DNA from: Risungbinella massiliensis
GTDB taxonomy: Bacteria; Bacillota; Bacilli; Thermoactinomycetales; Thermoactinomycetaceae
DNA length: 64,000 nt
Reading direction: 5' to 3'
Assembly: GCF_000942395.1 (NCBI RefSeq)
Contig: NZ_LN812103.1
Location: 501,394-565,393, forward strand
Every line of letters starts with the position of its first letter. Position 1 is the stretch's first letter. The translations under genes and the position numbers were made by a program. Shown one piece after another: positions 4,560 to 54,549 of the stretch. The notes under the pieces are model-generated. The model searched no databases and was not told the DNA's origin. It saw only the letters and a program-made list of their open reading frames with translations.

Positions 4560-4730
4560 TTAAGTGGTTAATTGTATTAGAGCGATAACTACTGCGAATC
4601 CTGCTGAATATATTGCATAGCGAAAATAATCCCAAGCGCGTTCGTCGTCTCTTTTTGCATCATAATGCTTAGAGATTTTGTGGAAAAAAATAGCTAATGC
4701 AATAAGCACAATATAAATTCCTAACATCAT
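4560..4730 (-). CDS. 56-residue membrane protein with structured leader
   Basis: A 56-codon frame, too short for usual ORF cut-offs, starts with MMLGIYIVLIALAIFF and ends IALIQLTT. It has two hydrophobic helices (about 2-16 and 39-54) separated by a strongly charged loop (KISKHYDAKRDDERAW). A perfect ribosome binding site AAGGAGGG lies six bases before the ATG, but it sits in the 3' arm of a hairpin. The gene has its own candidate promoter, leader and terminator. I do not recognise a family. Its layout matches the neighbouring 61-residue gene (5003-5188), and the two leaders are clearly related. Confidence 0.75.
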   Translation of the reverse strand: MMLGIYIVLIALAIFFHKISKHYDAKRDDERAWDYFRYAIYSAGFAVVIALIQLTT

Positions 4731-4842
4731 GCTAATCCCTCCTTATTGTAAGGGATTAGATGCTAGTGACCAGCTACACTGATCCTAGTTTCTAATCCCC
4801 AAGAAAGGCATGAATACAAGCCCTTCTTGGGGATTAGAAACG
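4731..4842 (-). promoter_or_regulatory. Structured mRNA leader of the 56-residue membrane protein
   Basis: Read on the minus strand, a perfect 17-bp stem (4789-4805 with 4824-4840) lies at the presumed 5' end. Next come the 9-mer CTGGTCACT (4765-4773) and a second hairpin in which CTAATCCCTTA pairs with TAAGG(AG)GGATTAG, hiding the ribosome binding site. A candidate promoter TTTACA-17-TAAGAT lies just upstream (near 4850-4880). The same 9-mer, spacing and CCTTACANNAAGGAGG element occur in the leader at 5189-5300. Confidence 0.65.
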
Positions 4843-4950
4843 ATCAGATGACTAAATCTTATGATAATATTTAAAGAGTGTAAAGTATTTTTTATCTTTC
4901 AAGTACCATGTTCCAAAGTATAGAGGCGTTCTAGAAAGAAACTTATATCC

Positions 4951-5188: not shown

Positions 5189-5300
5189 CTCGCCACCTCC
5201 TTGGTGTAAGGAAGACAACAAGAGTGACCAGTATTCAGTTACTCAAGTTGCCCACCTGAGAAAAGATCATCGAAATCTCCTCTCAGGTGGGCAACTTATG
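5189..5300 (-). promoter_or_regulatory. Structured mRNA leader of the 61-residue membrane protein
   Basis: A perfect 17-bp hairpin (5245-5261 with 5281-5297) is followed on the minus strand by CTGGTCACT (5223-5231) and by TCCTT-ACACC-AAGGA, which covers the ribosome binding site. The distance from the 9-mer to the start codon is exactly 34 bases in both this leader and the one at 4731-4842. Confidence 0.65.
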
Positions 5301-5353
5301 AGAAACTAACTTAATTTTATCATATTTCATAATGATTAGATATCGGGTATCAA

Positions 5354-5395
5354 ATAAAAACCCACCTCCGAAATGTTATATATAGGAGGTGGGTT
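5354..5395 (-). terminator. Intrinsic terminator of the yidC operon
   Basis: AACCCACCTCC pairs with GGAGGTGGGTT over a 15-base loop; on the minus strand it is followed by TTTTTATTTG. It lies directly after the YidC stop codon. Confidence 0.85.
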
Positions 5396-5404
5396 GATTT
5401 TTTA

Positions 5405-6079
5405 TCAAATAGTTGTTACTTCTTTATATAACAATTTTTTACCCCAAGCAGTCCGATAAAATCCACGTTCGACAATAGTGAAAATAGAATTAGAGATCCA
5501 ATATAATCCTATTGCGACTGGTGCTGACCACATCACAAACAAAAAGATAATTGAGATCAGCATAGGGAAACCAGCACGTTGGAGCATGGAACTAGCTACG
5601 ACCGCTTCTGAAGTTAATGGAATGCAAGAGGCGATCAGTGAAACAACAGCATAGACAATGGGTGTTATGTGAAGCGGGTCTGGCGAATGAAGAGAATCGA
5701 TCCATGGAAGAATGGCAGTAGAAACAAAAAATCCATGGGAAGTGAAGAGTTGATATAAAGAGAGAAATATAGGAGCTTGCACCAGCGCGATCCATAAGAA
5801 AGATACTGGCTTTACACCATATTTTGAGTAAAGCTCCGATGTTTTCTGAAAGAGTAGTGCAGAATCCTTTGCATAGTTCTCTCTTATTTTGCTAAGTAAT
5901 GGTTGAATTCGCGCCATTTTCACTTGTTGTCTTGCCGTTTTAAGATTGGTTGCGAACAATATAGAACGAATCAAAATGGTAAGTAAAATGATCGCAAATC
6001 CCCAATCTCCGGTAACCGAGAAAAACACTTGTAGTAACTCATCTAATAATTTAATGATTGGATCTAACCATGAAAACAT
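5405..6079 (-). CDS. yidC: Membrane protein insertase, YidC/Oxa1/SpoIIIJ family
   Basis: The 224-residue protein inserts proteins into the cytoplasmic membrane; Bacillus paralogues (SpoIIIJ, YqjG) also act in sporulation. The first conserved helix contains the hallmark arginine, Arg38 (LTILIRSILFAT), followed by the cytoplasmic charged region, the SFLWIALVQAPIFLSLYQLF helix and two further helices near the C-terminus. Compared with SpoIIIJ it is short: the usual N-terminal lipoprotein signal and lipobox cysteine are absent, and the protein starts almost directly at MFSWLDPIIK. GGGAGGAA precedes the ATG well. It follows a small membrane-protein gene (6108-6353) with 28 bases between them. It may be a second, specialised paralogue. 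Confidence 0.9.
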   Translation of the reverse strand: MFSWLDPIIKLLDELLQVFFSVTGDWGFAIILLTILIRSILFATNLKTARQQVKMARIQPLLSKIRENYAKDSALLFQKTSELYSKYGVKPVSFLWIALVQAPIFLSLYQLFTSHGFFVSTAILPWIDSLHSPDPLHITPIVYAVVSLIASCIPLTSEAVVASSMLQRAGFPMLISIIFLFVMWSAPVAIGLYWISNSIFTIVERGFYRTAWGKKLLYKEVTTI

Positions 6080-15240: not shown

Positions 15241-15690
15241 ATGGGACCAAATGTAGGAGAATTGATGTCACAAGACCTTTACTTTCTAACACCTGATGAT
15301 ACTATTTTCGAGGCAGCTGTTATGATGAAACAACACGATATTGGGATTGTACCTATTTGCGAAGAAGGCAAAGTCACAGGTGTAGTGACGGATCGTGATC
15401 TAGTACTAAGAGGAATTGCAGATAAAAAGCCTAATTCTGGGCGTCTCCAAGAGGTCATGTCCCAAAACCTAATATTTGCTGCACCAGAAATGGATCTAAT
15501 GGAGGCGGCAGAGATAATGGCAGAGGCACAGATTCGCCGTTTACCTGTCGTACAAGAAAATCAATTGATAGGTATGCTGTCTATAGGAGATTTGGCTACA
15601 GAGGAAATGTCTGATCAGAAAGCAGGAGGCGCTTTATCAGAGATTTCCGTAAGGAAACATGAACATTTTGACACAAATAACGTAATGTAG
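15241..15690 (+). CDS. Tandem CBS-domain protein
   Basis: The 149-residue protein consists of two CBS domains: residues about 8-58 (VGELMSQDLYFLTPDDTIFE to GVVTDRDLVLRGIA) and 70-125 (VMSQNLIFAAPEMDLMEAAE to GMLSIGDLA). Stand-alone CBS pairs bind adenosyl nucleotides and usually regulate a partner; Bacillus YhcV is similar. AAAAGGAGGG precedes the ATG. After the stop codon the GC content rises sharply and the hairpin RNA region begins within about 50 bases. No terminator separates the two, so co-transcription cannot be excluded. Confidence 0.88.
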   Translation: MGPNVGELMSQDLYFLTPDDTIFEAAVMMKQHDIGIVPICEEGKVTGVVTDRDLVLRGIADKKPNSGRLQEVMSQNLIFAAPEMDLMEAAEIMAEAQIRRLPVVQENQLIGMLSIGDLATEEMSDQKAGGALSEISVRKHEHFDTNNVM

Positions 15691-15734
15691 ATGTTTTTAT
15701 ATTCAAAATAGTAATGGTTGTGTTAAGATATATT

Positions 15735-16714
15735 TGACGGGTAGTCCCCGGGTCCCCAAAATGTGGGGGGTATTGTTTTCGCTATCGAACGGTAGACGCT
15801 TTTCTGTAGAAAGATTCATTCACCCTTTTTGGGGAGTCTAATCATATTTGGCTTTGGCCTTCATTTATAGAAGAAGAGATTTCTCTTTTTCGAAAAAATG
15901 AAGTCAAACCAATTATGGTTAGCGAGTGAATCTGATACAGAGAGTGTCTATCTAGTAGATGTGGCGGAGATGATACTCCTTGCATGGAGGGGGCCGGGGG
16001 GCTGCCTGTCAGAGGGTTTGTAAATTCCCATTAAAAATTTACAGTTGAGCGCAGTTTCTACTAGAGTGAGACTGCAAACCGAGCGGCAGGTAGCCGCAAA
16101 AACACATCCCTGGGAGTTATCTCCCTAGGGGTGTGACCCCTGAGTGCCCGCTTTGCGGGTGCCTCTTAGGAGGCGAAGGGGTGTGCTCCCCTTACCACCT
16201 AGTGGTCAGGGGAACATGCCCCTGATCAGTCTTCCCATCTTGCATGGGGAGACTGTGGCTGGGGTTCTTTTAGAGAAACCCCAGCAATCAGGGAGCACGC
16301 CCTAACAGTCTCTCATCTTGTATGAGAGACTGTAGCCGGAGTTCTTTTAGAGAAACTCTGGCATCATGGGCGAACCATTACAGTTTTCTCATCTTGTATG
16401 GGAAGACTGTAAGCCGGAGTTCTTTTAGAGAAACTCTGGCATCATGGACGAACCATTACAGTTTTCTCATCTTGTATGGGAAGACTGTAAGCCGGAGTTC
16501 TTTTAGAGAAACTCTGGCACTATGGACGAATCATTACAGTTTTCTCATCTTGTATGAGAAGACTGTAAGCTGGAGTTCACTCAGAACTCTAGCAAAGGAA
16601 AAATGTGTACGGTGGCTTATTTGTCATCGTGAACAACCCCAGGTCGTAGACTTGGCCTGGGGTAAATAAACGAATACAGAGTAGCTCCTGTTATCTAGGG
16701 AGGTACTCTTTTTT
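15735..16714 (+). ncRNA. Large, highly structured RNA of unknown class (about 980 nt)
   Basis: Between the CBS gene and spoVAC there is no credible gene but a nearly unbroken series of over 20 hairpins, closed by an intrinsic terminator (16678-16714). Examples are TTTGGCCTTCATTT with AAATGAAGTCAAA (15849-15908), a three-way junction at 16000-16095, GCCTC-TTAG-GAGGC (16161-16174), ACCAC-CTA-GTGGT (16194-16206), CAGGGG..CCCCTG (16207-16224), five copies of a three-hairpin module (16227-16593) and ACCCCAGG..CCTGGGGT (16636-16663). Stems in the repeats differ by compensatory changes, which argues for selection on RNA structure. GC content is clearly above its surroundings. The strand is inferred from the terminator; the 5' end and promoter are uncertain (weak TTCAAA-16-TAAGAT near 15702-15729). 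It does not obviously match OLE, GOLLD, ROOL or HEARO RNA as I remember them, but I could not search Rfam. Confidence 0.7.
16227..16593 (+). repeat. Tandem array of a 75-79 nt three-hairpin module (about 4.7 copies)
   Basis: Each unit has hairpin A (CAGT..ACTG, starts at 16227, 16306, 16381, 16459, 16537), hairpin B (GCYGGRGTT..AACYCYRGC, starts 16258, 16335, 16413, 16491, 16569) and a short hairpin C (16290, 16366, 16444, 16522). Copies 3 to 5 are nearly identical; copies 1 and 2 differ at several positions but keep pairing. The fifth copy lacks hairpin C and has a shorter B loop. Confidence 0.9.
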
Positions 16715-16716
16715 AA
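16678..16716 (+). terminator. Intrinsic terminator of the structured RNA
   Basis: AGAGTAGCTCC pairs with GGAGGTACTCT (one mismatch) over a loop of about 10 bases and is followed by TTTTTT. It marks the 3' end of the hairpin RNA upstream of spoVAC. Confidence 0.85.
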
Positions 16717-16780: not shown

Positions 16781-16833
16781 AAAAAACTCTCCTCCGTACA
16801 GTCTAAAGAGTACAAAGAGCGGAGGGTTTTTTA
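16781..16833 (+). promoter_or_regulatory. Terminator-like hairpin covering the spoVAC ribosome binding site
   Basis: AAAAAAC..CTCCG at 16781-16796 pairs with CGGAGGGTTTTTT at 16820-16832; the stem encloses GTAC/GTAC. The right arm contains GGAGGG, the only ribosome binding site for spoVAC, eight bases before its ATG. The form is that of an intrinsic terminator or attenuator placed in the leader. Confidence 0.65.
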
Positions 16834-16834
16834 T

Positions 16835-17314
16835 ATGGATCAAATGAAAACAGATATTAAACAACAAATAAAATCCAAAGAATATGAAGATCTTGCCAAA
16901 AAGTATCAGCCAAAACCCAAAGTCTTAATAAACTGTTTAAAGGCTTTTCTAGTGGGTGGGTTGATCTGTTTATTTGGGCAAGGTTTGATGACTGCGTATC
17001 AGTTAGGTTTCGGGTTGCCAAAAGATATGGCGAATAATTTGACCGTAGCTACTGTAGTTTTTATCTCTTGTTTACTAACTGGTTTTGGGATCTATGACAA
17101 CATAGGACAGTGGGCAGGAGCTGGCACCGCAGTTCCGGTTACAGGATTTGCTAACTCCATCGCATCTGCAGCATTGGAACACCAAGCAGAAGGATATGTA
17201 CTCGGTGTAGGGGGAAATATGTTTAAATTAGCTGGTTCTGTCATCGTTTTTGGAGTCGTATCCGCATTTTTTGTCAGTTTAATCCACACACTTGTTACTA
17301 TGTGGTTGCTGTAA
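16835..17314 (+). CDS. spoVAC: Stage V sporulation protein AC (DPA channel component)
   Basis: The 159-residue membrane protein has four to five hydrophobic segments (about 33-55, 64-88, 92-110 and 130-157) and the SpoVAC family pattern with conserved Gly-rich loops (GTAVPVTGFANSIASAALEH, GVGGNMFKLAGSVI). SpoVAC is a membrane channel of the SpoVA complex, which moves Ca-dipicolinate into and out of spores. I use the ATG at 16835, where homologous sequence begins and GGAGGG precedes; the longer frame starts within a hairpin. spoVAA and spoVAB do not precede it, and spoVAD follows by 15 bases. Confidence 0.95.
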   Translation: MDQMKTDIKQQIKSKEYEDLAKKYQPKPKVLINCLKAFLVGGLICLFGQGLMTAYQLGFGLPKDMANNLTVATVVFISCLLTGFGIYDNIGQWAGAGTAVPVTGFANSIASAALEHQAEGYVLGVGGNMFKLAGSVIVFGVVSAFFVSLIHTLVTMWLL

Positions 17315-50796: not shown

Positions 50797-51100
50797 TAAC
50801 ACTTCTTAATCACATCTTTACATAGCCACCTATGAAAGGAAAGTAATCAAGTGTTACGGGCATAAAGAGAAGAGGACTCACCGGCTGCAAGGTTCTCTAT
50901 GCTCCCCTTGATGAAAGACACCTGGAGGTTCTCATTTGAAAAGCGATTTCGCTTAGTAAGGTGAGACGCAGCCCCCTGCGTTATGGGTAATGAAGTGGGA
51001 AAAGCTGTAATCTAGGCTTTCCAATTAGGGTGGAACCACGGGAATTGATACCAATCTCTCGTCCCTGACAATTTGTGTCAGTGGCGGGGGATTTTTTATT
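50797..51100 (+). promoter_or_regulatory. T-box riboswitch controlling hisS-aspS
   Basis: The leader has the T-box sequence AGGGTGGAACCACGG (51027-51041) and a terminator at 51055-51097. In stem I, ATCAAG pairs with CTTGAT; the 5' loop strand AAAGTA (AGTA, loop E) faces GAAAGACA on the 3' strand. By analogy with other T-boxes the specifier is GAC (Asp, 50917-50919), followed by a purine; an overlapping CAC (His) begins at 50919. Uncharged tRNA would favour the antiterminator and readthrough into hisS-aspS. The base after TGG is A, which would pair with U73, not the G73 or C73 expected for tRNA-Asp or tRNA-His. Confidence 0.9.
51055..51097 (+). terminator. Regulated terminator of the T-box
   Basis: TCTCTCGTCCCTGACA pairs with TGTCAGTGGCGGGGGA (one mismatch, three G-U) over ATTTG, followed by six T. 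Confidence 0.88.
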
Positions 51101-54329: not shown

Positions 54330-54549
54330 TAAAAGGAAGTCCTGAGATGTACGTGTATCTCCTTCTTGTTTTTAACCAACATTTTTTCTTCGGGAGCTCG
54401 AGTCATTTTTCGGAAGAGATGCCGCTTGTCGGACCTCTGAAAAAAAGTGTAGAGCACCCACCTGCACACTGCAGGTTGAAAACAATGGAGACACGGCATA
54501 ATGGGGCTTCTATCTTTTGGTTCTTCCAATTTGGGAAGGGCTTTTTTTT
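54330..54549 (+). ncRNA. ssrS: 6S RNA (ssrS/bsrA-type)
   Basis: The RNA begins near AAGTCCTGAGATG, ends in GGGAAGGGCTTTTTTTT, and its ends pair (AAGTCCT with AGGGCTT), as in Bacillus 6S RNA, which starts AAGUCCUGA. The interior is mostly self-complementary. The place between aspS and rarA is the same as for bsrA in Bacillus. 6S RNA binds the housekeeping RNA polymerase and lowers its activity in stationary phase. I cannot fix the central bubble precisely. Length is about 210-220 nt. A 3' hairpin CTTCC..GGAAG with eight T terminates it. Confidence 0.8.

Follow-up and report, generated by a model that had tools for sequence, protein, structure and literature searches.

Very large structured RNAs are few in bacteria, and most of them have no assigned function. 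One of these, the OLE RNA, binds OapA. The precise function of OLE is still unsettled (PMC12054373), ROOL and GOLLD form RNA-only cages (PMC12286853), and behaviour as a scaffold or self-assembling particle has been described for all three RNAs (PMC12286853). Here we analysed a 64,000-nucleotide stretch of Risungbinella massiliensis DNA (the window), in which an earlier note had pointed to about 1 kb of back-to-back hairpins upstream of spoVAC as a candidate new large structured RNA. We confirmed that this structured kilobase is real and found that it had been understated.

Folded as RNA, the sequence that runs from the putative promoter through the terminator (995 nt) reaches a free energy of −518 kcal/mol, as compared to −309 ± 9 kcal/mol for dinucleotide-preserving shuffles (z = −23). 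After correction for GC content, the six most extreme 250-nt segments on the + strand of the 64 kb all fall within this locus. Furthermore, a structure scan covering ~75% of the genome (~2.56 of 3.42 Mb) identified it as the most structured 1 kb, with a mean z of −5.4 on the + strand; the runner-up, at G000:C7:35201-36000, is unrelated and has a mean z of −2.5. Elsewhere in the window, near-perfect long hairpins of 22-24 bp on the − strand (4601-4850 and 5201-5400) are among the strongest local structures in the scanned genome; they lie in noncoding sequence after an ORF for a YidC-like membrane protein (5405-6079, −). The window also contains a T-box leader (50823-51069) and a 6S RNA (54336-54511), both matching Rfam above the cut-off.

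We interpret the locus, with a probability of about 0.8, as a single-copy gene for an independent RNA of ~980 nt that is not translated and is predicted to span positions 15734-16715 on the + strand. Its features and flanking genes are listed in Table 1.

Table 1. Features of the predicted RNA gene and its neighbours, in window coordinates
Feature	Position	Strand	Evidence
CBS-domain protein gene	15241-15690	+	upstream neighbour; Pfam CBS, E 7e-30
Putative extended −10 promoter, TGTTAAGAT	15721-15729	+	position matches the invariant TGATATACT of Shimazuella
5′ domain, single interrupted rod of ~112 bp, tip 15870-15891	15734-16012	+	pair probabilities
Two separate hairpins, 16051-16075 and 16083-16097	16051-16097	+	pair probabilities
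GC-rich multi-hairpin junction	16103-16223	+	pair probabilities; R2 model match 16081-16231
Tandem array with 78-nt period, two-hairpin module in five copies	16227-16593	+	repeat searches
Two more hairpins ahead of the terminator	16604-16663	+	pair probabilities 0.94 and 0.98
Predicted intrinsic terminator, RNA end	16678-16715	+	stem 16678-16709 (pair probability 0.98), then TTTTTT; terminator scan match 16685-16702
spoVAC	16836-17314	+	downstream neighbour; Pfam SpoVAC_SpoVAEB, E 4e-40; ATG 16836 the likely start

Pair probabilities give 29 helices of 4 bp or longer in the RNA interval, which bears out the at least 20 strong stems counted in the earlier note, and the intrinsic terminator that it had placed at 16678-16714 was likewise recovered, with the T tail behind its stem. 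The 5′ part had been read as a set of separate stems; instead, it forms one long rod, the main segments of which pair with probabilities of 0.93-1.0 and which has a z of −14.8 when folded alone. The bulged stem described at 15849-15908 is indeed paired, but rather than being a separate element it is the tip of this rod. Similarly, the picture of back-to-back modules holds for the 78-nt array but not for the 5′ third of the RNA, which is taken up by the rod. Pairing within the array is less certain (pair probabilities 0.45-1.0), because the near-identical copies are able to pair with each other. As for the three-way junction proposed earlier, a three-way or larger junction is possible in the predicted fold around 16103-16293, but its closing helix is ambiguous, with two pairings lying within 0.4 kcal/mol of each other (−51.3 versus −50.9 kcal/mol).

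No protein-coding gene with a Pfam match is present inside the RNA interval. The sole ORF of more than 100 aa (115 aa, 16322-16669) has no Pfam match; it spans the 78-nt repeat and merely traverses the array, the repeat length being divisible by three. The earlier statement that there is no plausible gene here was thus correct, and so was the reported rise in GC content (0.40-0.56 inside the interval versus 0.35-0.44 in the surroundings, in 250-nt segments). The Pfam-annotated neighbours of the locus are YugN-like, CBS, spoVAC and spoVAD genes; spoVAC most likely begins at the ATG given in Table 1, ~120 nt past the predicted RNA terminator. The RNA gene is present as a single copy in its genome. 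Given the position of TGTTAAGAT, the 5′ end of the RNA is predicted to be near 15736; in a consensus promoter scan this element was not picked up, the match being no better than chance.

To place the RNA in a wider context, we compared the CBS/spoVAC loci of 22 other Thermoactinomycetaceae genomes. The two genes are adjacent in 15 of the 22, mostly separated by no more than a short spacer or by sequence that codes for protein; 12 of the 15 have no such RNA. The earlier note had proposed looking at this interval in relatives, and a structured RNA was found there in three species, Shimazuella soli, S. kribbensis and S. alba, which together with the window genome makes four carriers. The Shimazuella RNAs (650-840 nt) share the interval, direction and layout of the window RNA, which begins with the CBS terminator and the invariant TGATATACT box, continues with a rod (~250-314 nt), a hairpin junction rich in GC and a set of 3′ hairpins, and closes with a terminator. 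Their folds have z values of −12.6 to −17.5, and a bias towards G-U pairs on the + strand is seen in all four species. In two other genomes (G017 and G020) the interval is enlarged to ~1.25 kb without a structured RNA; that of G020 holds an apparent opposite-strand coding sequence flanked by two similar terminator-like hairpins.

We built covariance models of the rod tip (R1, from S. soli and S. kribbensis) and of the junction (R2, from S. soli alone). R1, built without S. alba, finds this species with an E value of 6e-11, while R2 finds both S. kribbensis and S. alba, the latter with an E value of 1e-8. Across the three Shimazuella species, 97% of R1 pair cells remain paired, and both partners have changed in 9 of 37 pairs, a count that none of 500 shuffles reached and that is far above slid controls; for R2, both sides have changed in 10 of 39 pairs (again 0 of 500 shuffles as high). 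Such counts from three sequences are limited when taken alone, and they are consistent with the strand bias when taken together with it. Searches with R1 in 42 genomes of the order and 399 of the class, and with R2 in 42 genomes of the order, gave matches only in Shimazuella. A third model, R3, made from the 3′ hairpins, finds S. kribbensis but neither S. alba nor the window convincingly, and was set aside as evidence.

The window RNA and the Shimazuella RNAs can no longer be aligned by sequence, and the window RNA is not recognised by R1. R2 does recognise it, on the right strand, with 23.6 bits (E 0.003 in 95 kb, 0.04 in 1.2 Mb), and this is its only match in the 1.2-Mb contig of the window genome; the second of the two separate hairpins (16083-16097) is the first hairpin inside the match. 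We consider this match suggestive only, because a false match on the minus strand of S. soli reached 20.8 bits, close to the window value. The shared interval, direction and order of parts, together with the weak R2 match, make it likely that the RNAs of the two genera are of common descent and have undergone very fast sequence change. Position is a stronger argument here than R2, as the most structured kilobase of the scanned genome sits in the very interval that holds the RNA in Shimazuella. The combined CBS and SpoVAC tree does not settle how Shimazuella, g9 and the genus of the window branched (support 58), and one gain therefore cannot be told apart from a gain followed by a loss.

Folding of the window locus favours the + strand over the complement by 135 kcal/mol (47 ± 8.5 kcal/mol expected from shuffles), since the imperfect pairs of the locus are G-U on the + strand: 48 G-U pairs form when the + strand is folded versus 12 for the complement, and in the rod the numbers are 22 versus 2. 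Among the five repeat copies, 6 of 21 stem pairs vary, with pairing intact in every copy; three of the pairs have changed on both sides, one base pair has been deleted on both sides at once, and every one-sided state is G-U, not A-C. The G-U strand bias, the retention of pairs among the repeat copies and the covariation in Shimazuella show that it is the folded form of the + strand that is under selection. Conserved structure with compensatory changes, by which large structured non-coding RNAs are generally recognised, is thus seen in the Shimazuella models as well as among the window repeat copies; covariation had been one of the checks suggested in the earlier note. With its 78-nt units in tandem and its numerous inverted repeats, the locus could also be a palindrome cluster that acts at the DNA level and has no function as RNA, for instance a group of recombination sites, MITEs or selfish hairpin repeats. 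A DNA palindrome, however, is strandless, and G-T mismatches should be no more frequent in it than A-C mismatches, which is at odds with the bias described above, and the single copy in the genome and the shared place in two genera also argue against such an element, making it very unlikely.

The relation of the RNA to its neighbours allows two other interpretations. The lack of a terminator between the CBS gene and the RNA in the window would fit a 3′ untranslated end of the CBS mRNA, serving as a stabilising or regulatory tail, but S. soli and S. alba have a T-run hairpin downstream of the CBS gene, with the invariant extended −10 box behind it, while in S. kribbensis ~350 extra bases intervene between the gene and the RNA; we thus regard such a tail as improbable. 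A cis-acting leader or attenuator of spoVAC, and through it sporulation control, would account for the place of the RNA directly upstream of this gene on the same strand, and also for the hairpin CCTCC...GGAGG, which masks the ribosome-binding site ahead of spoVAC both in the window (16789-16829) and in Shimazuella. This role is unlikely, given that the RNA is closed by a terminator, that a sigma-G-like promoter (GNATA-N16-CANNNTA) follows the RNA in Shimazuella and precedes spoVAC in the majority of family members, and that CBS and spoVAC occur without such an RNA in most family genomes; the strict sigma-G-like pattern was not found ahead of spoVAC in the window itself. The tie to sporulation suggested earlier is unsupported, with the CBS-spoVAC adjacency being wider than the distribution of the RNA and spoVAC mostly having a sigma-G-like promoter of its own. 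At the spoVAC ribosome-binding site, GGAGGG can pair with an upstream CCTCC in the window (16783-16836), and in Shimazuella the corresponding position has AACCTCC...AGGAGGTT, which overlaps the spacer of the sigma-G-like promoter there. The RNA could also be a far-diverged relative of OLE, ROOL or GOLLD, known large RNAs of similar size. OLE is present in 9 of 23 family genomes, patchily and at ~500 bits, and absent from all four that carry the new RNA; this would fit a replacement, although with only two genera the absence could be due to chance (~0.14 by count, about 1 in 7). Against this descent, Rfam gave no match even at permissive thresholds, a drop from ~500 bits to nothing within one family would be unlikely, and no OapA gene, the OLE partner, is found among the neighbours at the locus; we consider it very unlikely.

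In Rfam 15, no family matches the window RNA or the Shimazuella RNAs, in line with the earlier reading as a new RNA. Two of the outcomes that the earlier note had named as refuting, membership of a known family and a lack of covariation, were looked for and not found. The permissive Rfam search returned only sub-threshold chance matches, mostly to microRNA and snoRNA models. A pattern scan of viral contigs found nothing, and DNA matches outside the RNA's own genome were limited to two weak ones of 26 and 34 nt, at chance level. No description was found in the main text of open-licence papers, and the RNA may have been listed earlier among unnamed motifs. The proposal of a large structured non-coding RNA outside the known families is supported, at the level of sequence, by the predicted fold, the Rfam result, the relatives and the covariation.

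According to the independent-RNA interpretation, transcription would begin at the RNA's own vegetative promoter right after the CBS gene and end at its own terminator, so that the RNA would be part of neither the CBS message nor that of spoVAC. It would fold into a stiff 5′ rod of ~112 bp, a GC-rich multi-hairpin junction and then a hairpin array, the copy number of which would shift through tandem duplication. A sequence that changes fast while its pairing is maintained, and a hairpin number that varies next to a constant rod, would fit an RNA in which geometry counts for more than sequence. By analogy, the RNA could possibly be a multi-arm protein scaffold or docking platform, or a self-assembling particle like OLE, ROOL and GOLLD, a suggestion that we put forward tentatively. 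We see about an even chance that these RNAs constitute a new class of stand-alone Thermoactinomycetaceae RNA of ~0.65-1 kb, with a dsRNA-like 5′ rod and an expandable hairpin array, which acts by shape as an RNA particle or protein scaffold, changes too fast in sequence for cross-genus alignment and may stand in for OLE where OLE is absent.

The RNA is chromosomal, single-copy and fixed in place in cultured named species (the three Shimazuella), which makes it amenable to probing, deletion and imaging. It also suggests that the layout of such RNAs can persist after the sequences of related genera have ceased to resemble one another. Family searches such as Rfam cannot follow conservation of layout alone, and more RNAs of this kind may be hidden.

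Several known systems share aspects of this architecture. Similar to CsrB/RsmX, the RNA has a row of short hairpins that could hold many copies of one binding motif, and rsmX gave a match in S. soli of 22.3 bits, below the cut-off of 56. However, the hairpin loops of the window RNA (CUUGU/CUUGC, UUU, AGGUA and others) contain no series of GGA motifs, and the 5′ rod has no counterpart in CsrB/RsmX; a role as a CsrA sponge was dropped in view of the GGA-free loops. ROOL and GOLLD are likewise large RNAs with many stems, but their covariance models match neither the window RNA nor the Shimazuella RNAs, DNA similarity searches of phage and plasmid records gave no match to the window RNA, and to our knowledge a 112-bp 5′ rod is not a feature of ROOL or GOLLD. 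OLE (RF01071), the covariance model of which does not match the window RNA, is also a large (~600 nt) structured RNA of Bacillota and occurs in this same family; unlike OLE, which is conserved in sequence across the family, the RNA of the window and of Shimazuella changes fast.
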